Shown here in pieces: positions 29,995 to 50,642 of a DNA stretch of 64,000 nucleotides. Position 1 is the first letter of the stretch. Each line of letters starts with the position of its first letter. Below the pieces are notes generated by a model, which worked only from the letters and a program-made list of their open reading frames with translations, made no database searches and was not told the origin of the DNA. The stretch comes from an uncultured Schlesneria sp. (GTDB lineage: Bacteria > Planctomycetota > Planctomycetia > Planctomycetales > Planctomycetaceae), in contig CAIVEI010000051.1 of NCBI GenBank assembly GCA_903904835.1, positions 124,001 to 188,000 on the forward strand, given 5' to 3'. The position numbers and the translations under genes are program-made.

Positions 29995-30024
29995 CCCGTT
30001 TTTCGGCGTGTCACCGAAAACGGG
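29995..30024. repeat. Inverted repeat with one-base bulge
   Basis: CCCGTTTTTCGG pairs with CCGAAAACGGG with one extra T, around a 7-base loop. Hairpin or protein-binding site upstream of the defence operon. Confidence 0.5.
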
Positions 30025-30116
30025 CGATCCGAATTGAAATTCAGTCCAGGACGTCAAAGATCAATTGTCGTCGACCGGTTTTGGTTTCCAGAAATCAGGG
30101 CGATCCACCAGCCGTA

Positions 30117-30136
30117 GAATGGGCTTCAGCCCGTTC
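30117..30136. repeat. 'GGGCTTCAGCCC' hairpin repeat
   Basis: GAATGGGCTTCAGCCCGTTC forms a short hairpin and resembles the element at 9785-9810. A dispersed intergenic repeat. Confidence 0.5.
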
Positions 30137-30511
30137 CAAACAACAGCCTTCGCCGGCCAAAATCACTCCGAAACCAAAATCGACAATGTCGAAAAAAAAT
30201 GATGGCGATCATGGCGGCAACGAAGACCTCGTGGACTTCCTCGCCACTGCCGATAAGAGTGCGACATGAAAACACAGTAGTTTTTAGCGTTCGTCAATAG
30301 AAAAAGGGAGTACTTTCTTAACGTTTGGAATGTGGTCAAAAAATTGTTTTTTGGGATCGTTACGACAACAAATTCGATTCGTAATTCTCCGATGAAGCCT
30401 TCTTTGTCCAAATGAAATTTTTAACGACCGCTCGATACCGTCGATCCGATAAATTGGGTAGTCTTTTGCAACAGAGAATTTCCACATCATCGCCTGCGAC
30501 TCGGAACACCG

Positions 30512-30526
30512 AGCGTGTTGCACGCT
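30512..30526. promoter_or_regulatory. Inverted repeat just upstream of the helicase start
   Basis: AGCGTG-TTG-CACGCT, 10 bases before the TTG start of the helicase gene, where a ribosome site would be. No Shine-Dalgarno sequence is visible, so this hairpin may limit translation or be an operator. Confidence 0.35.
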
Positions 30527-30536
30527 GGGGCCACGT

Positions 30537-33500
30537 TTGAGCAACAACGCTATTCGAACCGGAAGCATCGTGTCGGGACCGACCTTGCCAGAGGCCGTCG
30601 AAGTCCTTGCGCTGATTCCGTTTGGCGAGTCGGTCAAAATCATTGGTCGCGGTCTGAAAACAGGCATGACTTACGACCCGGTGCTCAGCCCGTCGCAAAT
30701 CGCGCAACTGACCGTTTCTGCGGAAAAAGAACCGTTTGACGGCGATGCACGCCTGTTTCGTCTGGGTGTCGAAGCACATCGTCTAGGACTGGCGTACGAG
30801 TACGACCCGTTCTTTTCACTGTCGATCGCACGCGTCGATCCGTTGCCGCATCAGTTGGAAGCGGTCTATGAATATTTTCTGAAACTCCCGCGCATTCGTT
30901 TCCTGCTCGCCGACGACCCCGGTGCGGGAAAGACGATCATGGCAGGGTTACTGCTGAAAGAGTTAAAAGCACGCGGTCTTGTGAAACGAGTTTTGATCGT
31001 GACACCTGCGAGCTTAACGTTTCAGTGGCAACGCGAAATGGCGGATAAGTTTCGCGAAAAATTTGAAGTCATTCGCGGCGACGTTTTGCGTGCCAACTAT
31101 GGGCAGAACCCCTGGCAGGAACGGGACCAGGTTGTCACCTCAGTTTCGTGGGTCTCGATGGTTGAGGACGCACGCGAAAGCCTGCTGCGATCCCGTTGGG
31201 ATCTGGTGATCGTCGATGAAGCCCACAAGATGAGTGCCCCTGCCGACGACCGCAAGACATACGCCTATCGGCTCGGCGAATCCCTTTCCAAGATGACGGA
31301 CCATTACCTGTTGATGACGGCCACGCCGCACAAAGGTGATCCCGACCATTTTCGCCGGTTCCTGGCTCTGCTCGATCCCGATGTCTACGGCAGCATTGAG
31401 AGTCTGCAACGTGCCCTGAAAGAACATGAAGCACCGTTCTACCTGCGGCGAACAAAAGAAGCACTCGTAACGTTTCCGCATCCTGAAACAGGCGAAGTAC
31501 GCAAACTGTTTACGAAACGCGAGGTTCGCACGGCGGCTTTCGATCTCGACGGCGACGAACTTGATTTTTACGACGAATTAACGCGATTCGTCGAAGACCA
31601 GTCGATGGCCGCGGCGGGTCAGGAAACCGCCCGAGCCCGTGCGGTCGGCTTTACGATGGCGATGCTCCAGCGGCGAATGGCGTCTTCGGTCTATGCCGTT
31701 CGCAAAAGTCTGGAGCGGATGAGGACTCGTCGGCAGAAGATTCTGGACGACCCCGAGGCGTATCGACAGGAACAGATCGAACGCAAGTTACCCGACGATT
31801 TTGAAGATCTCACCGAAGAAGAACAGCAACGAATCATCGATCAACTCGCCGACGAAGTCCTGTCAGCCGATCCCGCTGCGTTACGGGAAGAGATTGGTCG
31901 TCTGACGCAACTGGTCGACCAGGCGAAGCAGATCGAAGCTCGTGATACTCAGACCAAACTGACCAAGTTGCGGGCCATCTTGCAGGAAGAAGGGATTTTC
32001 GATGACCCGACGATGAAATTGCTCGTCTTCACCGAACACAAAGACACGCTGGATTTCCTGACCGGCGATGGACGCGATGATCGACCGCTGGGAAAGCTGA
32101 GAGAATGGGGACTGACGCTGACGCAGATTCACGGCGGGATGAAAGTCGGCGACCGAGATACACCCGGTAGCCGCATCTATGCCGAACGTGAATTCCGCGA
32201 GTCAGCCCAGGTCCTTGTCGCGACCGAAGCGGCGGGCGAAGGGATTAACCTTCAATTCTGCTGGGTCATGGTCAACTTCGATATTCCCTGGAATCCCGTT
32301 CGACTTGAACAACGTGTCGGGCGAATTCATCGTTACGGTCAGGAGAAAGATTGCCTCATCTTCAATTTCGTCGCCAGAAACACTCGCGAAGGCCGAGTTC
32401 TCCAAACGTTGATTGAGCGCTTGAAAGAGATTCGAGCCGATCTCGGGAGCGATCAGGTTTTTGACGTCGTGGGCGAAGTCTTTCCGTCAAACCTGTTGGA
32501 AAAACTGTTCCGCGATATGTATGCCCGGCAGTTGAATGTGCATCAGATCGAAGACCGAATCGTGCGGGATGTCAGCCCCGAACGATTCCGAGCGATCACC
32601 GAATCAACGCTCGAAGGCCTGGCAAAGAAGGAACTCAACCTGTCGGCGATCGTCGGAAAATCGGCCGAAGCAAAAGAGCGACGTCTGGTCCCGGAAGTGA
32701 TCGAGCAGTTTTTCATCATCGCCGCACCGGAAGCGGGTCTTTCTTCAAAGCCGATGGAAACGAAGCCACAACCCGATTCAAAGTGTCGAATCTACCGGAT
32801 CGGCAAAGTTCCGAGGCATCTACTTCAGATCGGCGACCGGCAAGAGGATCGGTTCGGGCGACTTGGCCGCGAATACGGCAAGATCGTCTTCGACAAACAG
32901 TTTCTCAAGTCTGATGCCACGTTGGAATGGGTCACACCCGGTCATCCGCTGTTCGAGACACTGAGAACCGACATCCTGACGCGAGTGGATGACCATCTCC
33001 GACGCGGTGTCGTGTTTTACGACCTGCATCGTTCACAACCCGCCTTACTGGACGTCTTCGCCGCCTCAATCAACGATGGCCGTGGAAAGACGCTGCATCG
33101 TCGGCTGTTTGTCGTTGAGTCGGGTATTCCCAGTGGGTCGGCCAGTATTGCGCACGGCATTACCGAAAAAACTCCCGCCGAGCCGTCTTTCGCCATGTTG
33201 GTTCATGAGCCGACGTTACTTCACGACATCATCCCCGCCCCAATTGGGACACCTTCCCCGCAATTATCGACACCAAGTCGACAATCCGTCGAAAGCTTTC
33301 TCTATCAACATTCGTTGGCCCCGTGGGGTGAACGTGAATCCGCCGTTCGCGAACAGGAAGTCGCCCGAGTCGTAAAGCACGTTCAGATCAGCCTGGAGTC
33401 GTTGATCGATCGTCAGCAATTGCAGTTTGCGGAACTCGAAACCCGCCGCGTTGAAGGGAAGACAGTTGCAGGTTTGGAAGGAATCATCGCCCAGGCCGAG

Positions 33501-34046
33501 CAACATCTTGACGAACTCAATAATCGGCTGGAATCCCGCCATAAGGAACTTGAACTCGAACGTCATTGTGCCGTGGCCGATATCACCCATCTTGGCCGAG
33601 CCTGGGTTGTCCCCCATCCTGACCGGACGAATCCGCAACTGGCCCCAATGGTCAGGGACGACGAAATCGAACGGATTGCCGTCAATCTCGCAATCCAATA
33701 TGAAGAATCCCGTGGCTGTGTTGTAGAGAGTGTTGAGTCTGAAAATCGAGGGTTTGACCTGATTTCACGTCGTCCACATTCGGAAGACCCGAAAACGTTT
33801 ATCGAAGTCAGGTTTATTGAAGTCAAAGGTCGGGCGGGAGTCGGAGTTGTCGCTCTCAGTTCGAATGAATACACGACCGCCCAGCGGATCAAAAACGATT
33901 ATTGGCTGTATGTGGCCTTCAATTGTGCAGGTAACCCTCAGCTCCATACGATCCAAAACCCGGCGCAATTGGGCTGGCAGCCGGTAATGTCGGTCGAACA
34001 TTTTCAAATCGGTGCCAATGCGATAATCGGAGCGACGAAACAGTGA
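30537..34046 (+). CDS. SNF2-type superfamily 2 helicase with C-terminal DUF3883-like domain
   Basis: 1169 aa, first gene of the six-gene defence-like operon. Helicase motifs: Walker A DDPGAGKT (126-133), DEAH box (227-230), motif III TATPHKGDPDHF, and motif VI QRVGRIHRYGQ (592-602). Residues about 1060-1150 (GFDLISRR, FIEVKGRAGVGVVALSSNEY with E1095 and K1097) match the DUF3883 nuclease-like fold found on defence helicases. The family is close to the DISARM DrmD and BREX BrxH-type enzymes, which translocate on DNA. The start is a TTG: the N-terminal G-x-I-V-x-G-P region it includes is conserved in such helicases, and no ATG is available before residue 44. Its TGA overlaps the next GTG. Confidence 0.85.
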   Translation: MSNNAIRTGSIVSGPTLPEAVEVLALIPFGESVKIIGRGLKTGMTYDPVLSPSQIAQLTVSAEKEPFDGDARLFRLGVEAHRLGLAYEYDPFFSLSIARVDPLPHQLEAVYEYFLKLPRIRFLLADDPGAGKTIMAGLLLKELKARGLVKRVLIVTPASLTFQWQREMADKFREKFEVIRGDVLRANYGQNPWQERDQVVTSVSWVSMVEDARESLLRSRWDLVIVDEAHKMSAPADDRKTYAYRLGESLSKMTDHYLLMTATPHKGDPDHFRRFLALLDPDVYGSIESLQRALKEHEAPFYLRRTKEALVTFPHPETGEVRKLFTKREVRTAAFDLDGDELDFYDELTRFVEDQSMAAAGQETARARAVGFTMAMLQRRMASSVYAVRKSLERMRTRRQKILDDPEAYRQEQIERKLPDDFEDLTEEEQQRIIDQLADEVLSADPAALREEIGRLTQLVDQAKQIEARDTQTKLTKLRAILQEEGIFDDPTMKLLVFTEHKDTLDFLTGDGRDDRPLGKLREWGLTLTQIHGGMKVGDRDTPGSRIYAEREFRESAQVLVATEAAGEGINLQFCWVMVNFDIPWNPVRLEQRVGRIHRYGQEKDCLIFNFVARNTREGRVLQTLIERLKEIRADLGSDQVFDVVGEVFPSNLLEKLFRDMYARQLNVHQIEDRIVRDVSPERFRAITESTLEGLAKKELNLSAIVGKSAEAKERRLVPEVIEQFFIIAAPEAGLSSKPMETKPQPDSKCRIYRIGKVPRHLLQIGDRQEDRFGRLGREYGKIVFDKQFLKSDATLEWVTPGHPLFETLRTDILTRVDDHLRRGVVFYDLHRSQPALLDVFAASINDGRGKTLHRRLFVVESGIPSGSASIAHGITEKTPAEPSFAMLVHEPTLLHDIIPAPIGTPSPQLSTPSRQSVESFLYQHSLAPWGERESAVREQEVARVVKHVQISLESLIDRQQLQFAELETRRVEGKTVAGLEGIIAQAEQHLDELNNRLESRHKELELERHCAVADITHLGRAWVVPHPDRTNPQLAPMVRDDEIERIAVNLAIQYEESRGCVVESVESENRGFDLISRRPHSEDPKTFIEVRFIEVKGRAGVGVVALSSNEYTTAQRIKNDYWLYVAFNCAGNPQLHTIQNPAQLGWQPVMSVEHFQIGANAIIGATKQ

Positions 34047-34882
34047 TTCCGCGAATTCAACACAGCCGGTCGCAATTACGTTCGCATTTTAACGAATACG
34101 AAGATGGCGCGACCTCACTTTTCATGTCCACGGATACTTACCCGGATTTATTCACATTACAGTATCCGGAAATCGTCGCAAAGGCTCCTCATGGTTGGCG
34201 CCGCAAGAACATGGCATACCTATGGTTCCCCCCGAATTCACTCGACGAAAACGATCTCACAAAAATCAAAGAGTGGCGAGAGAAGTTCGCGCAATATGTT
34301 CTCTTGGGATTGAACCCCAATATCGCACCACATTTCGGGAACGAACTCGACTTCTGCATGGCCCTCGACTTCAACTATGTTCCTTCTGAAGGGAAGCGGA
34401 CGATTTATGGAGAGGCCGAATATCAATTGAAGTATCAGGACTCGCGACAGCATGTCCAAGTGTTGGCAAATGCACTGGTCGACGCAATTTCCGACCTTCC
34501 GATTCCCGCCGAATGTTTGGACGATTTTTGCATTTCCTGCGTTCCGAGCTCGCCCGACGTGGCCAGTGTCCAATACCGCCTCGCGTCCGCAGTTGCGGGA
34601 AAAATTGCCGTGGACTTTGTTGACGCCGATTTGAACTGCCCGAAACCAAGCCTCAAAGGGGTGACGGTTGACCAGAAGATTCCTATTTGGCGAAAACTGT
34701 ATGATGATGGTTGCGTCGTACTTTCCGGGTCTGGTGAGGACCGCCTTGTCGTCGTGATTGATGACCTGTACCAGTCTGGAGCAACCTTGTGGATGTTTGC
34801 CAAATATCTCAAAGAACAGGGAGCGTCCCATGTAATTGGGCTTCCCTGTGTCAAATCGTTGGGAGATTCCGATAACCAATGA
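34043..34882 (+). CDS. Phosphoribosyltransferase-like protein of the defence operon
   Basis: 279 aa from a GTG that forms a GTGA overlap with the helicase stop. Near the C-terminus, VVVIDDLYQSGATLWMFAKY (D240, D241) matches the PRPP-binding loop of type I phosphoribosyltransferases, with S in place of the usual T. The first 140 residues match nothing I recognise. The gene ends with an ATGA overlap onto the DprA-methyltransferase gene, so the two are translated together. A ComF-like or nucleotide-processing role is possible; no enzyme activity can be assigned from sequence. Confidence 0.65.
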   Translation: MIPRIQHSRSQLRSHFNEYEDGATSLFMSTDTYPDLFTLQYPEIVAKAPHGWRRKNMAYLWFPPNSLDENDLTKIKEWREKFAQYVLLGLNPNIAPHFGNELDFCMALDFNYVPSEGKRTIYGEAEYQLKYQDSRQHVQVLANALVDAISDLPIPAECLDDFCISCVPSSPDVASVQYRLASAVAGKIAVDFVDADLNCPKPSLKGVTVDQKIPIWRKLYDDGCVVLSGSGEDRLVVVIDDLYQSGATLWMFAKYLKEQGASHVIGLPCVKSLGDSDNQ

Positions 34883-37800
34883 TCAAAGTCGCGTCTCCCA
34901 TTTTGAACCTGTTGCTCGCCAAAGGCGTCGGCACGAAAACGCTCTCCGACATTGTCGATAAACTCGTCGCGCGCGGTCTCTCTCCAGATGACACTGGGAT
35001 CGACGTTCTTGCTGACGAACTTCATTGGCGGGAGGAGCTGAAAGCGAATGCACATTCGGTTCAAGAGCAGGCCGATTTGCTTGCGGAACAAATCGAACGA
35101 CAGAATATTCGAATCCTTGTTCGTGGCTTCGATCCCTACCCTCAAAAACTGATTCGAATACTCGGCAAAGACGCGCCACCGGTCTTGTTCGCCAAGGGAA
35201 ATCTCGCGCTGCTGGAGGCTAAGGCTGTTGGCTTTTGCGGCTCGCGGCAGGCCTCGGAAAAAGGGATTCACGTTGCGGGCGAATCGGCTCGGCAACTGGG
35301 AGAAAAAGGGATAAACGTTGTCAGTGGCTACGCAAAAGGGGTTGATCTTACGGCCCACTGCGCTGCACTTGATTCGGGTGGCACGACGACGATTGTGCTC
35401 GCCGAAGGAATTCTGCATTTCAACGCCAAACGCGAAATCAAGGCGCTGCTCAACGATGTGAATTATCTTGTTATCTCGGAATACTCGCCGCGTCTTCCTT
35501 GGGCGGCGCGAAACGCCATGCAAAGAAATCGGACGATCATCGGCTTGAGTGATGCAATGATCGTTGTCGAATCGGGAACGACTGGCGGGACATTCGCCTG
35601 TGCCGAAGCAGCGCTTGAATTGCAGCATCCGTTGTTCGTCGTTGAATACGCGGCGCCAGCCGAATCGGCTGGCGGAAACCAGCAGTTTTTGCGTCAGGGT
35701 GCGCTACCGTTACGCGGGGATCGGCATGGGCGACCGATTTTGACGAAGGTTTTTGAGACGTTGGCGGCTGAACCAGCGAACGAAACAAAGGATGAAGTTC
35801 GTGTGGCGGAATCCCGCGATATGCTTATCGAGCCTCCGGCAAACACGATCGAGACAATTCCAAAGCCGACGACATTTACGCAACCTGATGAGAATCCAGT
35901 GAAACAAATTGGTTACCCGAAACGTCTGATCGAAGTCGACCTTCCCATCGCCCGAATTTCCGCTCATGCACGCCGGGAGAAGTCGATTCGGCATGGTCAT
36001 ATTTCGACCCTGCATATCTGGTGGGCCAGGCGACCGTTGGCGGCATGTCGAGCAGTGATCTGCGCCAGCTTGTGGCCAGATCCCGTTGACGTCACACAAG
36101 CGGATGTCGAGAAGGCGGCGGCCGATGGTCGGCAACTTCAACTGAACACGTGCCCGCCAGCGTTCCGGCAGTCTGCGGTCAAATTGTTGCTTGAATTTGC
36201 GAATCGCTTTTTCCCGAAGCAGATTAACGAAGAAGGGGAAAAGCTGAGACAGTCCGCTTCGCCGGAAAGCCTTGCGCGGTGGGAAGCGTTGGCGAAAGGG
36301 ACGATGAAACTTGATCCAGACGATGCGTCCGAGGGGCCGATGGTCCGTCTCTGTCTGCTCGATTTCATCGCCGACTTCGCGAACTGGGACAATTCAACGG
36401 TTCCTGCGTATTTGGAAACAAGTCGAGCGCTGACGCAGGCAGCGCATGAATCGCTCGGTGGTGCGCCGGGTACACGACCATTGGTGGTCGATCCGTTTGC
36501 GGGGGGCGGGAGCATTCCTTTAGAAGCGCTGAGAGTGGGAGCGGATGCGTTTGCTAGCGATCTGAATCCAATTCCCGTTCTTCTAAACAAGGTAGTACTC
36601 GAATACATCCCTAGATACGGGCAAAAACTTGTTGACGAAGTTAGAAAATGGGGCGCATGGGTCAAAAACGAGGCTGAAAAAGAATTAAAGGAATTTTATC
36701 CAGCTGACGCAGACGGCGCTATACCTATCACATATTTGTGGGCGAGAACAGTTTTAAGCGATGCTCCTGGGGAAGCGGAGGCGCCCGTTGAGGTGCCGCT
36801 TATGCGATCTCTTTGGCTTGCGAAGTCGATGGGTAGGAAACGCGCTCTGCGTTGGGTCCGCGATTCGCAGGGTGGTGTTAAGTCGGAGTTGATTGACGTC
36901 TGCTACGTTATAGATGGGCAAAAAAGCAAGAGGCAAGTCCGTCGGCCATTACTCGAGATTTTTGAACCAAAAAATGAAAAGGAAGTTGAGCCAGGCACCG
37001 TAGCTCGTGGAAGCGCGACTTGTCCAGTGACGGGTTACACGACTCCAGTGGCTTCCGTGCGCTCACAGTTGAAACAACGTCGTGGGGGCGCGGCAGACGC
37101 CCGCCTATTCGCTGTCGTCACCAAAGTTCCAAACGTTCACGGGCGGACTTACCGACTGCCAAATCATTCTGATTTGATTGCTTTCAACTCGGCTGCGAAC
37201 GAGCTGGAGCGACGTGAGCGTGTGGATGGTACCGAACGTTCCGCAACTGGTCGAGTTGCGGCTCGACGTAGCTTAGAGGCAAGTCACGCGGGTGCGGATA
37301 CTCGTTGTAGTTTGGTTCCTAACGAAGTGATCTCGTTGAATGAGCTTAGGCGCGTGAGCGTGCCCATCTACGGCATGGCACGGTGGGGCGATTTATTTTC
37401 ACCTCGACAGGCGCTAACGTTGACGACGGTCGCACGCCTCGTGCGAGATGCCGGAGCGCGGATGGCCATTAGTGAGACAGGTCATAGTGATGAGATCGCG
37501 GGATTGAGGAACGAAGATTCGCGTCCAGTTTCAACGCAAACTTTGTTGGGGGAGGGCGACGGCGATCTGCAAAAATTAAATTACACAGGATTGGCCGAGG
37601 CAGTGATAACATGTCTATCTATGGTTCTTGGGCGACAGGCTGACTATGTTTCAACATTGGCCATTTGGTCGAGTGGTGGCGAGTTCGTCGCACACACATT
37701 TGGCCGGCAGGCGATTCCAATGGTTTGGGAGTTCCCGGAATGCCAGCCGTTCTCAGATTCTTCTGGGAATTTCGAGGGCGCTTTGGGCTGGGTCATTCGC

Positions 37801-39291
37801 GTAATCGAAGCAAATATGACTGCGGATCAAACGGTTGGCCACGTGGAACAAGCGACCGCTACGCAACACCCATTACCTGACGACGCAGCGGCGGCAGTTG
37901 TCACAGATCCTCCGTATTACGACTCGGTGCCCTACGCGTACCTTTCGGATTTCTTTTATGTCTGGATGCGCCGCACCCTCGGCGGCGTGCACCCGACGTT
38001 GTTTCGTAACCCCGGCGTTCCAAAAGAGGCGGAAATTGTCGTCGATCGTCCGCATCAACTCAGCCAGTCGACGAAGGGGGTCGCCTTTTACGAGAAAGAG
38101 CTCACAAAGGCATTTTCAGAAACACGACGAATTCTGGCCCCATCTGGTATTTGTACGATTGTTTTTGCGAGTAAGACAACCGCTTCGTGGGAGGCAATTC
38201 TGAAGGCGGTTGTTGACGCCGGATTCGTCATCACCGGGTCGTGGCCTATTGATACGGAGCGAGAAGCACGAGTAGCAGCGCTTGGACAAGCCCGACTAGG
38301 TTCCTCAATTCATTTGGTCTGTCGCCCAAGGGAGGATGAGAGCGGATTGTTAGTGGAATCGATTGGCGAATGGCGAGATGTTCTGGGTGACTTGCCAAAG
38401 CGGATTCACGAATGGATGCCGCGACTCGCGTTAGAAGGCGTTGTCGGCGCCGACGCGATCTTTGCGTGCCTCGGCCCCGCCTTGGAAATCTTCAGCCGTT
38501 ACAGTCGTGTCGAAAAAGCAAACGGTGACACTGCGACCCTTCGTGAATACCTTGAGCACGTCTGGGCTGCTGTTTCCACAGAGGCGCTGTCTTTAATCTT
38601 CAAAGATGCTAACGCTGCCGGGTTGGAGCCCAATGCGAGACTCACGGCCATGTGGTTATGGACAATCGGCGGGGGTGGCGCCACGAACGGCAATGGAACA
38701 AAAGCCAACGCTCTAGGCGATGACGAGAGCGACGAAGAAAGTAGTGACGAGGAAGAAGAGAAGGTTGCTACTGGAGGTACCAAAGGCAAAGCGACAGGTG
38801 GGTTCTTACTTGAGTACGACGCGGCGAGAAAAATCTCTCAGGGTTTGGGAATCCATCTTGAACAATGTGCGTCCCTTGTTGAAGTTAAAGGGGATAAGGC
38901 GAGGCTTTTGCCGGTCGCGGAACGGACGAAATATTTGTTCGGCAACGAGACTCAATCCGAAACGACCGCTGCCCGCCGACGAAATAAGCTTCAACAAAAG
39001 TCGTTGTTCGCTGAACTTGGCGACGCGGAGGACGAGGTCGAATCCGGCTGGACACTGACGAAAGGCCCACCAACCGGTGCTACGGTCCTCGACCGGGTGC
39101 ATCAAGCGATGATTCTTTTCGCGGCGAGCCGTGGCGAATTGTTGAAGCGATTTCTCACCGAAGATAACGTCGGCAAAGATCCGCGATTCTGGAAGTTGGC
39201 GGATAACCTCAACAAGCTATACCCACCCGGCACCGATGAACGCCGCTGGATTGAAGGAGTTCTGGCGCGGAAGAAAGGGCTTGGATTCTAA
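34879..39291 (+). CDS. DprA/Smf (SLOG) domain fused to DUF1156/COG1743 adenine-specific DNA methyltransferase
   Basis: 1470 aa. Residues 1-305 are a complete DprA/Smf domain: VGFCGSRQASEKG, VVSGYAKGVDLTAHCAALDS, VISEYSPR, RNRTIIGLSDAMIVVESG, then GGTFACAEAALE. After a 45-residue linker, KRLIEVDLPIARISAHARRE and HISTLHIWWARRPLAACRAV open a DUF1156 methyltransferase. SAM motif I is DPFAGGGS (538-545) and the catalytic motif IV is DPPYYDS (1010-1016), implying N6-adenine methylation. Around residue 715, ATCPVTGYTTP replaces the usual Cys-x-x-Cys of the family's zinc ribbon. An acidic low-complexity stretch lies near 1275-1300. DprA binds ssDNA in transformation; as a SLOG fold it may also sense nucleotides. 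I know of no described protein with this fusion. Confidence 0.88.
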   Translation: MIKVASPILNLLLAKGVGTKTLSDIVDKLVARGLSPDDTGIDVLADELHWREELKANAHSVQEQADLLAEQIERQNIRILVRGFDPYPQKLIRILGKDAPPVLFAKGNLALLEAKAVGFCGSRQASEKGIHVAGESARQLGEKGINVVSGYAKGVDLTAHCAALDSGGTTTIVLAEGILHFNAKREIKALLNDVNYLVISEYSPRLPWAARNAMQRNRTIIGLSDAMIVVESGTTGGTFACAEAALELQHPLFVVEYAAPAESAGGNQQFLRQGALPLRGDRHGRPILTKVFETLAAEPANETKDEVRVAESRDMLIEPPANTIETIPKPTTFTQPDENPVKQIGYPKRLIEVDLPIARISAHARREKSIRHGHISTLHIWWARRPLAACRAVICASLWPDPVDVTQADVEKAAADGRQLQLNTCPPAFRQSAVKLLLEFANRFFPKQINEEGEKLRQSASPESLARWEALAKGTMKLDPDDASEGPMVRLCLLDFIADFANWDNSTVPAYLETSRALTQAAHESLGGAPGTRPLVVDPFAGGGSIPLEALRVGADAFASDLNPIPVLLNKVVLEYIPRYGQKLVDEVRKWGAWVKNEAEKELKEFYPADADGAIPITYLWARTVLSDAPGEAEAPVEVPLMRSLWLAKSMGRKRALRWVRDSQGGVKSELIDVCYVIDGQKSKRQVRRPLLEIFEPKNEKEVEPGTVARGSATCPVTGYTTPVASVRSQLKQRRGGAADARLFAVVTKVPNVHGRTYRLPNHSDLIAFNSAANELERRERVDGTERSATGRVAARRSLEASHAGADTRCSLVPNEVISLNELRRVSVPIYGMARWGDLFSPRQALTLTTVARLVRDAGARMAISETGHSDEIAGLRNEDSRPVSTQTLLGEGDGDLQKLNYTGLAEAVITCLSMVLGRQADYVSTLAIWSSGGEFVAHTFGRQAIPMVWEFPECQPFSDSSGNFEGALGWVIRVIEANMTADQTVGHVEQATATQHPLPDDAAAAVVTDPPYYDSVPYAYLSDFFYVWMRRTLGGVHPTLFRNPGVPKEAEIVVDRPHQLSQSTKGVAFYEKELTKAFSETRRILAPSGICTIVFASKTTASWEAILKAVVDAGFVITGSWPIDTEREARVAALGQARLGSSIHLVCRPREDESGLLVESIGEWRDVLGDLPKRIHEWMPRLALEGVVGADAIFACLGPALEIFSRYSRVEKANGDTATLREYLEHVWAAVSTEALSLIFKDANAAGLEPNARLTAMWLWTIGGGGATNGNGTKANALGDDESDEESSDEEEEKVATGGTKGKATGGFLLEYDAARKISQGLGIHLEQCASLVEVKGDKARLLPVAERTKYLFGNETQSETTAARRRNKLQQKSLFAELGDAEDEVESGWTLTKGPPTGATVLDRVHQAMILFAASRGELLKRFLTEDNVGKDPRFWKLADNLNKLYPPGTDERRWIEGVLARKKGLGF

Positions 39292-40184
39292 TGCCAGAAC
39301 TCGGACCGATGCAGTGCCGTCTTTGCAAATCCGATCTGATTCCGTCTTTGAAAACCGTAGCTATTCAAGCAAATTCCTACTGTGATTGCTTTTATCGATG
39401 TGCGAACTGTCACGTTGGCTATTCGAATGCGCAGGACGAGCATTCGCGAACCCTGATCTATGACTCATGGGAAAGAAATATTCCCGTCGAAGTCCATGAC
39501 GGCTTGCTGCAATGTGTCGGTAGCGCGCTCAATAAACGAAATCGGACGACAAAGCTGAAACGACTCTCTTTTGAGTCTTCCGAAGACGCTGTGACCTGGA
39601 CAGTGTTTCGATACCTTCAAGATTCTGCTCATCTGGGGAAATTGTTCGGCGTGGATCGGCCTCGGGTCTTATTTTGGGGACGTGAATATCCAGAAAGACC
39701 GGTAACAACGACCCCTGATGTCACGCAGATACTGACGACGATTTTATTGCAAATCGGTGACGAATCGAGTTGTCTCTCGGAACCCGACATTGTCCTTGTT
39801 ACCGATGATTCGGTATGCACGATTGAAGTAAAATATCGTGAAGATCGTAATACAGTCAGCCGCCGTCACCGTCGATTTCGAGAATACACGGACGCGGCAC
39901 CGGAATTGTTTGATGACGCAAACGTGGTTGCTGATACCGGCTATTACGAGCTGACTCGCAATGTCGTATTCACGAAGTTGCTGGCCGAAGCAATGGGCCA
40001 CAGGGCATGGAAGGTGGTTAATGTCGGGATGCCATCGGTAAGTGACTCGGCGAACGAATTCGCCGCGCTTTTGAAGGATAAGACCAACTTCGAATTTCTC
40101 GATTGGCCAACGGTCTGCAGTAGCGTCCCTCAAATTCGTCCTGCGTGGTTTCAATCGTATTTGCAGGCCAAGGAACTCGAATGA
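39291..40184 (+). CDS. Zinc-ribbon PD-(D/E)XK nuclease-like protein
   Basis: 297 aa. The ATG shares its A with the preceding stop (TAATG). C9, C12, C37 and C40 form a zinc ribbon (MQCRLC ... RCANCHVGY). Residues 97-182 fit a PD-(D/E)XK nuclease: a helix with E98 (SSEDAVTWTVFRYL), D166 in EPDIVLV and E179-V-K181 in CTIEVKYRED. This would be the cutting subunit of a modification-dependent or restriction-type system. Fold assignment is by motif only; no known family name is recognised. ATGA overlap with the next gene. Confidence 0.65.
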   Translation: MPELGPMQCRLCKSDLIPSLKTVAIQANSYCDCFYRCANCHVGYSNAQDEHSRTLIYDSWERNIPVEVHDGLLQCVGSALNKRNRTTKLKRLSFESSEDAVTWTVFRYLQDSAHLGKLFGVDRPRVLFWGREYPERPVTTTPDVTQILTTILLQIGDESSCLSEPDIVLVTDDSVCTIEVKYREDRNTVSRRHRRFREYTDAAPELFDDANVVADTGYYELTRNVVFTKLLAEAMGHRAWKVVNVGMPSVSDSANEFAALLKDKTNFEFLDWPTVCSSVPQIRPAWFQSYLQAKELE

Positions 40185-40774
40185 AAAAGTCGCGTTTCGA
40201 GACTTGGCGTGATGCCTTCCAGAACGTGGTTCGGGAACAATCAGTTTCCGCGCCCCTGAAAGCAGCCTCATTAACTCAAGACCTCAAGACTTGGACCAGT
40301 TGTCTAACGTCAGGCGTCGTTGCTTCGTGCCACCATCTTGGTTGGCTCGCTGCGGCCAAAGGGCACCCGCTCGACATGCATCCGAAACCAGGAAAAGAAT
40401 ACCTCAACATTGACGTAATGGCATTCTCAGGGGCACCGATCGCTGGTCGTTGGCGATTGCCGATTGCGGCTTTCGAACTCGAAAACCGACGCACCGACGA
40501 TCGTGTCGGCTACTCGTTGTGGAAGTTGCTCTGTTTGCGCACTGAACTCCGCGTCGTCTTTGCATTCCGTCGCGATTGGGAGGAAAGCCGCCGGTCGGTC
40601 GATGCCATTGGACGTGACGTGATTGGAAGTCTCGCCGTCGCCGAACGCATGGGGATCACCGGGGAAACAGTCCTCATCATTGGCAATCGCGGGGATGGCG
40701 AATCGTTTCCCTGGGGCTATTTCAAGGTTTGGTTGCTCGACACCAACGTCGGACGATTCGAGAAGATTTCGTAA
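40181..40774 (+). CDS. Defence operon protein, possible second nuclease-like fold
   Basis: 197 aa from the ATG at 40181, which overlaps the previous stop (ATGA). I recognise no family. D78 (YLNIDVMAF) followed 21 residues on by E99-L-E101 (AAFELENR) resembles a PD-(D/E)XK core with the Lys position changed to Asn, so it could be an inactive or altered nuclease, or a small accessory protein for the ATPase that follows 25 bases later. Rich in Arg and Trp. Function unknown. Confidence 0.55.
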   Translation: MKKSRFETWRDAFQNVVREQSVSAPLKAASLTQDLKTWTSCLTSGVVASCHHLGWLAAAKGHPLDMHPKPGKEYLNIDVMAFSGAPIAGRWRLPIAAFELENRRTDDRVGYSLWKLLCLRTELRVVFAFRRDWEESRRSVDAIGRDVIGSLAVAERMGITGETVLIIGNRGDGESFPWGYFKVWLLDTNVGRFEKIS

Positions 40775-40799
40775 AGACCGATATGCGAAGGACGATTTA

Positions 40800-43754
40800 A
40801 TGGCAAAACTAAAGCCCTGGTATCAAGTTGTGACCCCACGCGAAGACCTGCGGGATAATCGCCCGTTGGATGCGTCCGAGTTCGCCGTGAACCTGGGGCA
40901 TATCCATGATCGACGTGCGGAGGTCCATTCGGATTATTCTGATCCCGCCCGTTTTTTTTCTCGCACACTCATCACCCAAGGTCTCAAGGATCTTGCGACG
41001 CAAGTGCTTCGTCGCCTTAACGGGATCAGTGTTGAGTCCTCGGCTGTGTTCAACATGGCGACGCAATTCGGCGGCGGAAAGACGCACTCGATGACCGCGC
41101 TTTACCATTTGGGAAGCGGCGGACCCGCAGCACCGAAATGGAGTGGGGTTGAACACCTGATGCAGGCGGCCGGGGTCAAATCGGTTCCCCAGGCGGCAAT
41201 CGCGGTCTTCAATGGGAAGGATTTCGACTCGCTCACCGGTCGCGGAGGCGACGGGGAGCCTGTACGTAAAACGCCTTGGGGCGATATCGCCTGGCAGTTA
41301 GGAGGAAAGGCATCGTTCGATGTCATTGCAGAACATGACCGGGATTTCATCGAACCGAAAGGGGACGCGATCCGCAAATTCTTACCTAAGGATCGACCCG
41401 TCTTGATTCTGATGGATGAAATCATCAGTTACATGAGCACCTATCGTGGTCGAGGTTACGGCGATCGACTTTATAATTTCGTCGATTGTCTCGGCGAGGT
41501 GGCGCGTAGCGAATCCAATGTTGTTCTGGTCGTATCGGTCCCGGCATCGGAACTGGAATACACGGCAGCGGATAGCTCGGATGAAGTGCGATTCAAGAAA
41601 ATGCTGGATCGGCTGGGAAAGGCGATCCTCATGTCGGCTGACCGCGAGATGCAAGAGATCATTCGCCGCCGATTATTCGAATGGGAAGGACTGGACAAGG
41701 ACGCGCTCGCGACAATTTCAGCCTATGCGGAATGGGCTGCTGATCATTCCCAGGATTTGGCTGGCATTGACCGTGATGCGGTCTACGAGCAATTCAAATC
41801 ATGTTATCCGTTTCACCCGTCGGTGATTTCGGTCTTCGAACGCAAGTGGCAAAGCCTTCCTCGATTCCAACGCACGCGCGGTGTCTTACGACTGTTGGCG
41901 CTCTGGGTGGCCCATAACTATCAGGAAGAGCATCGGCAAAACAGTCAGGAACCATTGATCACGCTCGGTCTCGCTCCGCTGGACAACCCCATGTTTCGCG
42001 CGGCGATTTTCGAACAGCTCGGTTCGTCCGAACTCGAAATTCCTGTGACGGCGGACATCACCGGGAAAACCAGTGAATCTCACAGCCTGCGTCTCGACAA
42101 AGAAGCGTCCGAAGCGATTCGAAAAACACAGCTCCATCGCAAGGTGGCAACGACCATCTTCTTTGAGTCAAACGGCGGCCAAAGCCAAACTCGCGCCGAA
42201 GCATCGCTGCCGGAAATTAAAACCAATGTCTGCGGGCCTGACGTCAATACGGCGGATGTGGACACCGCGATCGAAGGATTGGCAGGTACCTGTTTTTATC
42301 TGCAATGGGAAAGAAACCGCTATCGATTCGGATTGACTCCGAACCTCAATCAAGTACTAGTCACGCGGCGCGGCAGCGTGCAACAAAAAGGTATCGACGA
42401 ACGAATCCGCCAACAGACCCAAGCGGTGTTTCGCGATAATCGTACTGACACAGGCAAATACGTCGAACTCGAGTTCTTTCCCAAACGCAGCAGCGAAGTT
42501 AGGGAAGTCCCGCGAATCACTCTCGTGGTACTTTCTCTCGAATATCACGCAGGCGAACGCGAATCGCTTGACCTGATGGAGTCGATCGTTCGGGACTGCG
42601 GCAACAGTGCGCGAACATTCAAGTCCGCACTGATCTTCGCCGTTGCCGATCCTGGCGAGAATGTCGCCGATCAGGCTCGTGAGATCCTGGCTTGGGAGGA
42701 CATTCAGGATGATCAGGAAACAAAAAAGCGGTTCGACGATTCACAGTTAACCGTTTTGCGAGACAATCTCAAAACATCAAAACGCAACCTCGATGAAGCG
42801 ATCTTTCGGGCCTACAAGCATCTTTATCTTTTAGACAAGCAGAACAAACTCGTACCAATTGACTTGGGAAGCATCACCTCCAGTTCTGCCAAATGCCTTG
42901 TGGAACTGTACCTTCAGCGACTTGGGTCCGGCGGACTAGACCAGGTCGTCGAATCAGTCCCCGCCCGAAAACTGGCGGGTTTCTGGCCCGCATCGCTCAA
43001 CGAATGGTCCACTAAATCCGTGCGTGATGCCTTCTATTCATCGCCACTATTGCCGCGTTTGCTCATCCCCGACCAGATCAAGCGAACGATTGCTGACGGT
43101 GTTGTCCAAGGCATGATCGGATATGCGATCAAAGACGCTTCGGGGCAGTTGAAGCTCGACCGTCTAAAAGAAAGCCTATTCGAGGCAGACGTGGAAATCT
43201 CGGACGACGTTTACATTTTGAAGGGGGACGACGCACTTAAATTGAAAGAACCGCCGCGTCTGGCTGGTTTGACGGTCAAGCCTGAACAGGTTTCGGTGAA
43301 GGTTGGCGAACAGGTTTCGTTCCAGGTTGTGGGCGTCGATCAATACGGTGATCCATTTCCCGTCACGCAAACAGCATGGTCCGCCTCGACGGGCAACATC
43401 ACCGCGCAGGGATTGTTCGCTGCTGGAGACACCGGCGGTCTGTTCAATGTGAATGCAAAGGCAGGCGCATGTGAAGCGTTCGCCGAGGTCCGCGTCACCA
43501 CAGCGAACGAGCCGATAACGCCGCCGCCGTTACTACCGGCAGATCGATATCTTCGCTGGCGTGGGATCGTCCCATCGCAGAAATGGATGAACTTTTACAC
43601 GAAAGTGCTCAGCAAGTTCGCCAACACACCCGGTCTGAAAATTGAAGTCAGTTTCGAAGTCAAAATCGACAAGGACCACGCCGATTCCAAAGCCGCAGAA
43701 ACGCGGTCCGGCCTCAAGGAACTCGGGCTTGACGACCATATTGAAGGCTTTTGA
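40800..43754 (+). CDS. DUF499-like AAA+ ATPase with Ig-like domain, last gene of the defence operon
   Basis: 984 aa. Walker A is FGGGKTHS (90-97), Walker B is ILMDEIIS (D206, E207). The body is of the DUF499/COG1483 type, distantly like BREX BrxC/PglY. Residues about 821-901 form a bacterial Ig-like (BIG2-type) domain: LTVKPEQVSVKVGEQVSFQV, SASTGNITAQGLFAAG. The last 70 residues end in KIEVSFEVKIDKDH. I chose the ATG at 40800 because AAGGA lies 7 bases upstream; the open frame begins at 40623 inside the previous gene. It likely loads or assembles the helicase, methyltransferase and nuclease at target DNA, by analogy with BREX. Confidence 0.85.
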   Translation: MAKLKPWYQVVTPREDLRDNRPLDASEFAVNLGHIHDRRAEVHSDYSDPARFFSRTLITQGLKDLATQVLRRLNGISVESSAVFNMATQFGGGKTHSMTALYHLGSGGPAAPKWSGVEHLMQAAGVKSVPQAAIAVFNGKDFDSLTGRGGDGEPVRKTPWGDIAWQLGGKASFDVIAEHDRDFIEPKGDAIRKFLPKDRPVLILMDEIISYMSTYRGRGYGDRLYNFVDCLGEVARSESNVVLVVSVPASELEYTAADSSDEVRFKKMLDRLGKAILMSADREMQEIIRRRLFEWEGLDKDALATISAYAEWAADHSQDLAGIDRDAVYEQFKSCYPFHPSVISVFERKWQSLPRFQRTRGVLRLLALWVAHNYQEEHRQNSQEPLITLGLAPLDNPMFRAAIFEQLGSSELEIPVTADITGKTSESHSLRLDKEASEAIRKTQLHRKVATTIFFESNGGQSQTRAEASLPEIKTNVCGPDVNTADVDTAIEGLAGTCFYLQWERNRYRFGLTPNLNQVLVTRRGSVQQKGIDERIRQQTQAVFRDNRTDTGKYVELEFFPKRSSEVREVPRITLVVLSLEYHAGERESLDLMESIVRDCGNSARTFKSALIFAVADPGENVADQAREILAWEDIQDDQETKKRFDDSQLTVLRDNLKTSKRNLDEAIFRAYKHLYLLDKQNKLVPIDLGSITSSSAKCLVELYLQRLGSGGLDQVVESVPARKLAGFWPASLNEWSTKSVRDAFYSSPLLPRLLIPDQIKRTIADGVVQGMIGYAIKDASGQLKLDRLKESLFEADVEISDDVYILKGDDALKLKEPPRLAGLTVKPEQVSVKVGEQVSFQVVGVDQYGDPFPVTQTAWSASTGNITAQGLFAAGDTGGLFNVNAKAGACEAFAEVRVTTANEPITPPPLLPADRYLRWRGIVPSQKWMNFYTKVLSKFANTPGLKIEVSFEVKIDKDHADSKAAETRSGLKELGLDDHIEGF

Positions 43755-43986
43755 GTAACCACGAACGCACTTCAACACGGCGAACACCATTGTTTCTTTC
43801 TGTCGAGAACCTCGGTGTTTCCTATTGGATTACACGAGAACAAACGGATTCGCCGGCGAGCAAACAGATCGAACGGGATTGCTGCGGAGACTTTTCAGTT
43901 CGCTTCGCCAATTATTTTTGACTCCGCTAGGAGTCGACCGGAATCACCAGACTTCTCACGGCCAATTCTGAGCACCATTAACTGAT

Positions 43987-45552: not shown

Positions 45553-48500
45553 CTAAGGCGCACTATCGACGCCGAGGTCGTTGGGGTGCTCGGGCGGTTT
45601 TTGCCATTCCTGGGGTTTAATTTCCGTACCTTTTGTGTTGTCCATTAGCATCCAGACATTGTCACCTCGCTGAAGATTGTTCTTGACTTCAATCATTCGC
45701 AACAGCTTTTCGGTTGCCGCACGGGTGCAAAACGGTGATTTCAACATTTCAATCATCTCGAGAGTATCCAGAGCCTCTGGAAGTTTTTGAAGTGCGTTGA
45801 TCAGACCGATTGAGACTTGTTCGTTGACGTGAGTTTTTGTCGCAGCCAGCATTCTTTTGTTTGCGCGACGGACGTCTTTCAAGGGAATCCTCTCTACCTG
45901 CCGGTCGATTCCCTGCAACAGAATCTTCCGAGTCTCGTCCTCGTGAACTTTCTGCAGTCCCTCAAGCAGGCTGGACAATCCTTCGAATGCGTAATCGTCC
46001 TGGATTGCATTTGCCAGGGCGATGGCGGCATGACACAAGGCCGGACGAGTTTCTTTGTTACCCTCTCGGTCGGTGACATCCAGAATGTATTTGCAAGCGG
46101 CATCAACTTGCTCCGGTTTCATCCTTTTAGCCATGGCACTCCAAAGTTGAGCGATCTGACCTACCGCGTTGGGGTCATTGGTCGCCTGAATCCAATAGGG
46201 AATGAAATCGATGATTTGCTGAGCCGTCGCATGCCCCTTTTTTTCTGACAGCAATGGAGCGACTTTTTGCAATCCCTTTGCAAGTTGTTTTATTTCATCG
46301 GGACTGATCGCTCGTTGCATGGCACTGACGAGACAGTCGGCGATTGGTGATATTTCGGTCGCCTCGAATTCCTGGTCCGCCTTCACGGCGGTGCAAACCA
46401 GAGCAAGACCAAGCGAAAGTTCTCGCTTCATCCATGTTTGATTGACCGAGTGAAACTTTTTGAGAATCCTGCCGATCGCTTCTTGTCGTTTTTGCGGCGA
46501 CGCGATACTGCAGGCACGCTCGAACCTGCTTACCGCAACTTGCAAACTCTGTTCTGTTTCTTTTTCGAGAAGAAACGAGAGCATTCGTTCCAACATTTCA
46601 TCAGCGATCACTTCTGAGCGTTTTCCCGGTATCGTAGATAAACTTTCCACCAGATTTGCAACATCGATCGGCAATTTGCTACTGCGTAGTTTCGTCATCA
46701 GAATCGATATGGACTTGTCGATTGCCTTGGAAATGATGACTTCGTTCATTCCCTGAAAGCCGTTTGCCAGAGCAACGAGCTTTCGCGTATCGACAGTGTT
46801 CTCCATTTGATTCAGGATCATTTCCGCGCCCCTCTCTGCGGCGGCGTCCGACAGATTCGTTCCGATGGATTTCATCGCGTCACCAAGCATTGTCACCAAC
46901 TCTGTTTCGGTTACGCGTTCAAGCCAGTCCAGCAATATGGAAAAGGCTCGTTCGACGTCTTGCCTCAAGAGCTTGTCAGGGAGCGACGACAGTCCCTCGG
47001 ACAGATCCACCATCCCAGGAGGCGTGTCATATGTCCTCATCCGAGTCAACAGCTTTTCTTTGACGAGAGTCATTTCTTGTTCAGGTATTGTGTATGGAAT
47101 CTCTTTCACGCACTTTGCAAGTACCATTAAACTCGGTGGCAACTCTTCCTGATCAATTACATCGATCAAACGAGAGAGAGCCTTTCGAGAATCCTCTTCG
47201 GTTACATTCCCTTGTCGCTGCTTAAGACCCTGAAACAAACGTTGCAGCGACTGCGCATCTGTCGTGGCGTTCATTCCCTGCAAGAGAAGATCAATCCCTT
47301 TGGAAGGGATTTGCGGAGCAACGACAGCCAAACATTTCGCAAGGAAGCCCATCTCGTCCGAGTCGCATGAAGGTTGCATGCGGGACAGTATTTGATTTGC
47401 TGCGATTTCACATTGAACAGGATTCGAACGTTTGACACCACTTTCAAAGACACCCAACAGGGTCTCTCGTATTTCGCGACTTGGATATTCAGCCATCGTG
47501 TTAACGATGAAGCTCACACCGCTTTTCACGTTGAAGTTCTGGGCGAGATGTTCGGGCAACGAAATCATGCACTTGACGAGTCCCACAAAGACACGAGGGT
47601 CACCCGTTGTTCTATTCATCAGGGGCACGAGTCGCGATCCGATGCGCTTCGTCTCTGCTTGCGAGAGTTGTAAACTCGTTATTTCGAGAATTGCATTGCA
47701 AAGTGCAGTGACGTTTTCGGCTTCACTGCTGGACTCGATTGCTTTGATAACCTGTTCAACCGCCATGTGTAGACGATCTTGTGAGATCGATGCCATGACC
47801 GTGCTGAGGTCGTCTTTCAGTGATTTGAGTATTTCGAGGTCTTGACAATCCGCCATGTTCAACGAAAGAGACTCTACTGCTGCTTCTGTAAACACCTCGT
47901 CATTGATGTTCAGTGCAACACCAACGCGAGCGGCGGCAAGTTTCAAGTTCTTCTGATCTCTTTGATCCTGGCTCGATGGTTTGGAATGACTGAGTAACTC
48001 CAGAATTGTGAGTTTCAAAGCAGATCGACGGTTGTTATCCAACCCAACGACAGCTCGTGCGACAAATGGAGCTCGATTGATTAAACGCTCGACATTGGAA
48101 ATATCAAAGGACTGTCGCGACAACTTTTCTCGTAATGCCTGCTGACTCTCTTTCAAGCTGGCGATCTGCCAAAAAGCGTCGATTTCGTTTTGTTCCAGAT
48201 CCCCGGGCTGCCCACTGATTCTTGCCAGAAGGTCATTTGCATACGTTTGTTCGACTTGTAACCGGGCGAGTTTTGCCTGTTTCTGGGCTTTCCAGGCGAA
48301 TGCAGAGGCGATGAGCGCTGCAACGGCCAACGTCATCGCAAAGATCGATTGCCATTTCGATCGACGGGCGGAAGCCGCCTGCTCACCTGCGCGTTGTTTC
48401 TCGATTCCCGCCAGTTTGGTCAGGGTTTCAATCTCGCGTTTTTGACGATCGATTTCTTCCCGTTTTTCGCGATCTCGCTGTTCGATACTCGCGGCGAGAA

Positions 48501-50340: not shown

Positions 50341-50642
50341 CACTTCCCTCTTTGTAAATCCAAGAACCAAAAATGTCCTTGGGTATTTGATAAACAAAAC
50401 TGCGTGATTGTGCTATTGTGAGTTAATCGCAGGCGATTGGCAATCTGCATCGTTCGTAGCGTTGAGTGAAAATCAATCACATGCATGGTTTCTGGTATCG
50501 TTTCAGTTCATCTTATTTGTTTCGTATATTCTTCTTTTGTGACCTGTGTATTTCGAGTGATCTTCGCGAATTAGCCGAACTGATAACTCGTCGCGCCCGA
50601 CTCTTACCGAATCAGTACATCAAACTTTTCCGTTAGCTAATC
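50341..50642. other. Intergenic region between divergent genes
   Basis: 302 bases between the TIR-nSTAND start and the PD40 gene. AT-rich and without coding signal. Promoters for both must lie here. Confidence 0.4.

Follow-up and report, generated by a model that had tools for sequence, protein, structure and literature searches.

A planctomycete Hma operon in which a ShosA-like DprA domain is fused to the predicted methyltransferase HmaB

Hma, in which a helicase-nuclease (HmaA), a DUF1156 protein (HmaB) and a DUF499 protein (HmaC) are encoded in one operon, was named as a candidate system in 2021 in the PADLOC paper (PMC8565338) and was redescribed in 2026 by Rakesh & Krishnan as the DUF499-centred Type-1 BREX-Related (BR) system (PMC12839542). 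ShosTA, PsyrTA and RqlHI, a second set of relevant systems, consist of a phosphoribosyltransferase (PRTase) gene followed by a gene for a DprA-like antitoxin; the PRTase domain of RqlH is the toxic part, while the DprA region of RqlI gives partial rescue and the RqlH and RqlI proteins interact (PMC4670107), and for a DprA-PRTase pair protection against the phages T7 and lambda has been reported (PMC9122126). Here, we describe a six-gene operon (g1 to g6) in a 64,000-nucleotide stretch of contig CAIVEI010000051.1 from an uncultured Schlesneria sp. (hereafter, the window), in which a PRTase gene is inserted into an Hma core and a whole ShosA-like antitoxin, as read from sequence, forms an in-frame N-terminal fusion with HmaB. 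The features of the locus are as follows (PRPP, phosphoribosyl pyrophosphate; ORF, open reading frame).

30537..34046, plus strand: g1, HmaA, an SNF2 helicase with a C-terminal NOV_C/PD-(D/E)XK nuclease (PADLOC, Pfam, motif columns)
34043..34882, plus strand: g2, a phosphoribosyltransferase and probable toxin (ShosT/ComF-like), PRPP loop with D240 and D241 (PsyrT/ShosT models, fold)
34879-39291, plus strand: g3, whole ORF, predicted antitoxin domain plus HmaB (one unbroken ORF)
34879..35808, plus strand: g3 residues 1-310, ShosA/PsyrA-like DprA antitoxin domain (PADLOC, identity, solved ShosA)
35899..39291, plus strand: g3 from about residue 341, DUF1156-HmaB methyltransferase of N6-adenine type (HmaB model, Pfam, motifs)
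39291..40184, plus strand: g4, probable zinc-ribbon and PD-(D/E)XK nuclease, accessory and rare (a relative's residues, Pfam below cut-off)
40181..40774 (ATG at 40181), plus strand: g5, restriction-fold-like protein with D78 and E99-x-E101, a recurrent Hma partner (alignment, model)
40800..43754 (ATG at 40800), plus strand: g6, HmaC, a DUF499 AAA+ ATPase (HmaC model, Pfam, Walker motifs)
30014..43983, no strand: extent missing from same-genus genomes (left edge 30013/30014 in G510 and G512, right edge 43952/43983 in G514 and G512)

ORF calling placed six ORFs within 30537-43754, all on the plus strand, with products of 1169 (g1), 279 (g2), 1470 (g3), 297 (g4), 197 (g5) and 984 (g6) amino acids; successive genes meet at a GTGA (34043), an ATGA (34879), a one-base overlap of the TAATG type (39291) and a second ATGA (40181), and 25 bases (40775-40799) separate g5 from g6. 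A first-pass annotation had listed the same six plus-strand genes, overlaps and gap, and the ORF coordinates confirm all of them. That annotation had further proposed that the operon combines methyltransferase, ATPase and helicase genes of a defence type with added DprA and PRTase parts, which is supported here, and that it could represent an undescribed or distinct class of defence, which has to be abandoned, as its three core genes are those of the published Hma system.

The assignment to Hma is carried by PADLOC models, which identified g1 as HmaA (3.3e-187), the C-terminal part of g3 as HmaB (3e-123) and g6 as HmaC (1.1e-105), the three occurring together in one co-directional operon. Pfam matches above cut-offs were an SNF2 helicase and NOV_C (1.1e-16) in g1, in keeping with the earlier SF2/DUF3883 reading since NOV_C is the DUF3883-type end, DUF1156 in g3 (residues 355-411, 8.2e-23) and the previously annotated DUF499 in g6 (2.4e-20); an "Ig motif" also ascribed to g6 had no Pfam match. 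NCBIfam matches of the six proteins all fell under the family cut-offs, including phospholipD_antiphage on g1, which covered the helicase part alone and scored far under its cut-off. Catalytic motifs are conserved in all or nearly all aligned homologs for the Walker A and DEAH motifs of the g1 helicase (n=65), the DPFAGGG and DPPY motifs of the g3 methyltransferase (n=83) and the Walker motifs GGGKT and DE of the g6 ATPase (n=68), and the g1 nuclease residues D1074 and E1095-x-K1097 are kept in 64/64. The core is thus Hma as judged from its sequence, and hence no undescribed class.

Among features of the BR types, a helicase with a C-terminal PD-(D/E)XK restriction endonuclease, as in Type-1, appears to be present, given NOV_C and its motif residues; neither an N-terminal Tudor domain on g1 nor a C-terminal RRM domain on g6, also Type-1 features, had a Pfam match, for which the sensitivity of the search was possibly insufficient. 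No Pfam match to PglZ, DUF3780 or an HKD/PLD domain was found in the six proteins or the seven flanking ORFs scanned, and membership in Type-2 BR (which has DUF3780 or an HKD helicase) and in Type-3 BR and BREX (both with PglZ) was rejected on these grounds. DISARM, with DrmA/DrmB and a DrmD helicase, was likewise rejected, g1 scoring 622.7 bits with HmaA vs 414.2 with DrmD. DrmB is not among the PADLOC matches listed and DrmA is listed just for g1 (best 25 of 58 families); the earlier statement that PglZ, BrxL, DrmA and DrmB are lacking therefore stands for PglZ, BrxL and DrmB, which went undetected, but not in full for DrmA, which is listed solely as a g1 match.

To place the locus among its relatives, 84,980 species genomes were scanned with six g3 peptide patterns, an approach that may miss distant HmaB and fused forms; the scan gave 353 stretches and 311 relatives, and the best 80 of these relatives make up the set analysed here. 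In 60 of these 80 loci a helicase gene lies upstream and a DUF499 ATPase gene downstream of HmaB on the same strand, so the gene arrangement is not due to chance, and the conservation of gene order that the first-pass annotation had called for is found for the three core genes. In the other 20 loci, at least one of the two partners is missing from the stretch examined (10 lack the upstream helicase, 11 the downstream ATPase and L092 both), many of them lying at contig ends. HmaB was also seen as two tandem overlapping genes in a Myxococcales metagenome-assembled genome (L097, 8275-14207) and as two separate loci (L092, L124) on one Anabaenopsis elenkinii chromosome. Compared with Hma and Type-1 BR as described, the window differs in the inserted PRTase gene, in the N-terminal ShosA/DprA domain of HmaB and in the addition of g4 and g5.

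The N-terminal domain of g3 and the product of g2 both point to a toxin-antitoxin pair. Residues 1-310 of g3 matched the PADLOC models PsyrA (2.8e-59) and ShosA (6.4e-46), the Pfam DprA domain (2.6e-47) and solved DprA and ShosA chains (ShosA 9vzo at 4.2e-18), and share 46% identity over 298 residues with a free-standing 320-amino-acid gene in another planctomycete genome (G039), where that gene lies beside a g2 relative; the domain thus aligns with a whole free-standing antitoxin gene. With DprA and DUF1156 both found in one unbroken ORF, the fusion proposed earlier is upheld. For g2, the PADLOC models PsyrT (9.1e-6) and ShosT (6.7e-4) matched, the former just over positions 539-679 of its 689, and Pfam Pribosyltran fell below its cut-off. 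An AlphaFold model of g2, built from four sequences and with a predicted local distance difference test score (pLDDT) of 77, had 87 PDB matches at E <= 0.001, and the 50 listed were PRTases, PRPP synthetases and relatives (PurR, ComF, ShosT), bar 7f06 with its uninformative title; a second structure comparison ranked ComF first (Z 12.8), and gave ShosT bound to PRPP-Mg a Z of 10.0, level with other PRTases. The earlier PRPP-loop/PRTase assignment of g2 is therefore supported at the level of predicted fold.

Relatives of g2 matched at E <= 0.001 in 8 of 294 planctomycete genomes, the window's own included, and a DprA gene adjoins the three best others (G039, G118, G011), two on the same strand and overlapping and one divergent. 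The loci of these three are L163 and L165, with the same-strand overlap, and L164, with the divergent order, and no Hma gene match was found near the g2 relatives in these three stretches (18.7-19 kb each). Because of the ShosTA/PsyrTA model matches, the PRTase fold and the DprA neighbours of g2 relatives, we read g2 and the g3 N-terminus as a ShosTA-type pair, in which g2 is likely a PRTase suicide toxin that the DprA domain of g3 neutralises. The PRTase and DprA-like genes are adjacent, as in ShosTA; by contrast, the antitoxin is not free-standing but occupies residues 1-310 of a 1470-residue protein that is also a predicted DNA methyltransferase. Membership in PsyrTA or RqlHI was ruled out, as the PRTase of PsyrT and RqlH is joined to a helicase whereas the 279-residue g2 is not fused to a RecQ-like helicase.

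The joint used in the window is used by other antitoxin families in related loci. DarT acts on bases of single-stranded DNA; the established antitoxins DarG and NADAR strip ADP-ribose from DNA bases, macrodomain and NADAR antitoxins being hydrolases that reverse such marks, and known NADAR antitoxins pair with DarT1 (PMC11543638). At ten of the 80 HmaB loci there is a DarT/DarG-type or PRTase-CE/NADAR-type set. In three of them (L104, L119, L129), HmaB is preceded in the same protein by a macrodomain of DarG type and a SLOG domain resembling that of PsyrA/ShosA, and a DarT-HD gene lies upstream (in L129 the contig start cuts this gene, and its HD part but no DarT domain is seen); in two (L062, L078), HmaB is fused behind NADAR, with PRTase-CE upstream. 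The upstream toxin-type gene lies between an overlap and at most 76 nucleotides from the first Met of the antitoxin ORF, and the macrodomains keep the FPTK/LPTK lysine motif. All six clear N-terminal HmaB extensions seen (the window and five others) are antitoxin families; the long stop-to-stop readings of L061, L074, L081, L159 and L160 were judged upstream read-through, because a start codon lies just before DUF1156. A chimeric contig as the source of the g3 fusion was judged unlikely because the ORF is unbroken, its neighbours on both sides are the partners expected of Hma and fusions of other antitoxin families occur at this joint too.

Two further arrangements were seen upstream of HmaB. 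L063 (2953-4332) encodes a macrodomain and DarT in one protein. A small stand-alone gene recurs in L062 (7362-7991), L066 (5510-6241), L087 (9441-9992), L093 (9411-9992), L132 (9453-10013) and L137 (7235-7786); its product weakly resembles the C-terminal half of DarG (scanned in L087) and, except in L062, the gene sits behind a gene of one cluster, whose member in L137 has an HD domain.

The arrangement also extends beyond Hma. In the planctomycete genome G204, the mutually overlapping ORFs of a type I restriction-modification (R-M) operon encode HsdM, PRTase-CE, a fusion of NADAR to HsdS (Methylase_S domain) and HsdR, while DarT-HD with macro-SLOG, and PRTase-CE with NADAR (G334, L169), also occur as free-standing pairs; both types are absent from the window. 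The two loci of this group with mapped extents are as follows.

L179, 5432-13879 and 15153-17584, minus strand: G204 type I R-M operon, beside an NgoMIV-type R-M pair
L178, 3655-6476: free-standing DarT-HD and macro-SLOG pair on a conjugative Sinorhizobium plasmid, adjoining a SIR2 gene

The L178 pair is a variant of DarTG, its antitoxin bearing a second domain that is DprA-like. In total, seven fusions were seen (six to HmaB, one to HsdS), and in each the antitoxin sits on the modification or recognition subunit.

PrrC, an anticodon nuclease that the type I R-M complex of EcoprrI holds inactive, provides a model for how such a layout could work: a suicide effector is held by an R-M complex and is freed by a phage anti-restriction factor, although PrrC is a tRNA nuclease that is bound to, rather than fused with, the R-M proteins. 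Building on the observed gene content, the fusion, its recurrence with other toxin-antitoxin types and the conserved catalytic motifs, we consider it probable that the operon is an R-M-like Hma system with a captured ShosTA/PsyrTA-type pair, whose toxin is guarded by the antitoxin-bearing HmaB. By analogy with relatives, HmaB would methylate self DNA, and HmaC (AAA+) and HmaA (helicase-nuclease) would recognise and destroy unmodified DNA, while the g2 PRTase would act as a suicide toxin kept in check by a ShosA/DprA domain built into HmaB itself; the activities of toxin and antitoxin, as well as methylation and restriction, are all predicted from these relatives. With antitoxin and methyltransferase in one protein, a phage that blocks, sequesters or destroys the methyltransferase, or loss of the operon, would free the toxin and stop growth, so that the presumed trigger would be damage to the methyltransferase. 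A broader proposal is that guarded R-M is a general design: in R-M-like systems, among them Hma and one type I R-M operon or more, antitoxins of PRTase, PRTase-CE or DarT toxins would repeatedly have become joined to whichever subunit marks or recognises self DNA, the modification machinery thereby serving as the antidote and a phage's anti-restriction attack on it firing the suicide toxin. This is put forward tentatively, with the odds slightly against it.

Several observations weigh against the guarding account. Searches of 392 planctomycete genomes (E <= 1e-25) and of 170 genomes of the family (E <= 1e-30) each found the DprA-HmaB form in a single genome, the window's own, which both of these overlapping sets include. 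Fusion is not required, as DarT-type parts like those of L104 occur as separate overlapping ORFs in L128 and L137, and DarT and DarG parts are present but unfused to HmaB in L063, L067 and L120. Moreover, 70 of the 80 loci have no DarT, PRTase-CE or ShosT-type set, and in many of these the slot before HmaB holds other genes (Schlafen/AlbA, OLD-type, DUF262 and Fic proteins, named by eye, with a domain scan for GmrSD_N of L147 alone) or none; a PRTase of the g2 kind was found at none of the 80. The sequence match of g2 to the PRTase family is weak (best E against PDB 0.018, not significant), the role of NADAR as antitoxin of PRTase-CE is suggested by gene position, and the fusion may merely co-regulate its two parts.

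The data are compatible with guarding, with plain addiction and with delivery of the antitoxin alike. We regard it as rather unlikely that the pair serves addiction alone, stabilising the operon at a mobile, easily lost locus, with the fusion ensuring co-production of antitoxin and methyltransferase. The operon is indeed absent from at least one same-genus genome in which both flanks match (G512, where the two flank edges lie 646 bp apart, in a region that is otherwise rearranged and with a short left-edge match of 255 columns at 75%), and ShosTA, PRTase-CE with NADAR, and DarT with macro-SLOG exist as free-standing pairs; however, co-transcription would be enough for this purpose, which leaves unexplained why 7/7 fusions place the antitoxin on a modification or recognition subunit, and a DprA and PRTase pair has antiphage activity of its own (PMC9122126). 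It is distinctly unlikely, in our assessment, that the methyltransferase carries the antitoxin along self DNA, locally blocking or reversing the toxin while the toxin modifies phage nucleic acid, which would extend self/non-self discrimination from the nuclease to the toxin. That the fusion partner is always a DNA-marking or DNA-recognising subunit (HmaB, HsdS) suits this idea, as do the reversal of DarT-type marks by macrodomain and NADAR hydrolases (PMC11543638) and the retained lysine motif of the macrodomains, but DprA-type antitoxins bind their toxin rather than reverse a mark (PMC4670107), and antitoxin and HmaB are unfused in L128 and L137. Finally, that g2 is no toxin but an incidental repair- or competence-type (ComF/DprA-like) helper, with DprA loading single-stranded DNA for the complex, is highly improbable, for although ComF is the closest fold to g2 and many bacteria use DprA in competence, the best-scoring models for the DprA domain are those of toxin-antitoxin systems (PsyrA, ShosA) and DarT/DarG parts occupy the same joint in parallel loci.

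On an HmaB tree of 75 sequences (rows under 850 amino acids or without the DUF1156 start motif were dropped, and L154, L156-L159, L161 and L162 were in addition dropped by name), eight rows carry an antitoxin, unfused in two of them. These eight need 8 changes, of which well-supported branches force at least 7, and shuffled labels need 7.7 on average, so that the carriers scatter without clustering, a point in favour of the guarded R-M reading. From this scatter it follows that antitoxin modules have, as far as the sequences tell, been gained, lost or swapped many times, and the tree does not tell which. The nearest HmaB to that of the window (L058, 67% identity) has no toxin-antitoxin match at its locus.

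Searches for related arrangements elsewhere were largely negative. Query P0002 had no match among PLSDB plasmids and was found in 0/5 of the genomes of L104, L119, L128, L129 and L137. Query P0003 matched 398 plasmid and 37 phage records, none of which covered 80% of the query at a single place. The L104 N-terminus (macro-SLOG-DUF1156) matched 141 plasmid records, one of them with 80% coverage (H40); H40 and H39 end before DUF1156, and no macro-SLOG-DUF1156 fusion is present among the 25 of the 141 that are listed. Residues 1-480 of g3 had no match at E <= 1e-35 among 297 genomes from the phylum to which G536 belongs, a limit so strict that the empty result is uninformative. A NADAR-DUF1156 query matched one part each in 21 of 392 planctomycete genomes, with a NADAR-HmaB fusion in none.

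The two remaining genes of the operon are additions to the Hma core. The description of g4 as a zinc-ribbon PD-(D/E)XK protein holds in so far as its Cys residues, D166 and E179-x-K181 are kept in the sole relative found, while Pfam PD-(D/E)XK matches stayed below cut-off; g4 relatives occur in 2 of 246 genomes, the window's own included, and at 0 of the 80 HmaB loci. By contrast, g5 relatives are present at 28 of these loci, and the D...ExE motif previously noted in g5 is borne out, D78 and E99-x-E101 showing no variation across 27 aligned sequences (that of the window plus those of 26 of the 28 relatives; L062 and L137 were left out as short). The g5 model (pLDDT 90.8) had NucC and other restriction-fold proteins as best structural neighbours, with acetyl-CoA carboxylase domains also among them; the best score, with NucC (Z 7.8), is just under the trust line of the tool, and Foldseek found no PDB match at E <= 0.001. 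A restriction-like fold is thus probable for g5. Beside the operon, within the flank shared with the same-genus genome G514, positions 45553-50397 (minus strand) encode a 1614-amino-acid TIR and nSTAND1 protein, a possible signalling or defence ATPase.

With the first reading corrected, what is already known is the Hma core and, in kind, backup effectors, since backup nucleases in or near Type-1 BR loci have been reported (PMC12839542). What is new lies in the PRTase and DprA parts, which make up a toxin-antitoxin pair of a known kind whose antitoxin is fused to the methyltransferase, and the DprA-methyltransferase form is not described in the literature searched. In that literature, apart from supplements and subscription papers, no antitoxin fused to a methyltransferase or HsdS with a toxin gene directly upstream was found; DUF1156 is named there by PMC12839542, PMC9674854 and PMC10384328, and the main text of PMC12839542 has no mention of DprA, SLOG, PRTase, DarT or ADP-ribos, although its supplement may list such neighbourhoods. 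That this layout recurs with three antitoxin families, and on the specificity subunit of a type I R-M system as well, suggests that it has been selected for repeatedly. If the proposed guarding is true, restriction-modification and toxin-antitoxin abortive infection would be united in single proteins, and the fused partner, which suggests the target being watched, would allow what an antitoxin senses to be tested directly by genetics. Unknown N-terminal domains on methyltransferases or HsdS could then reveal new toxin-antitoxin pairs, and the methyltransferase itself may be a tripwire, the cell sacrificing itself when a virus disables it.

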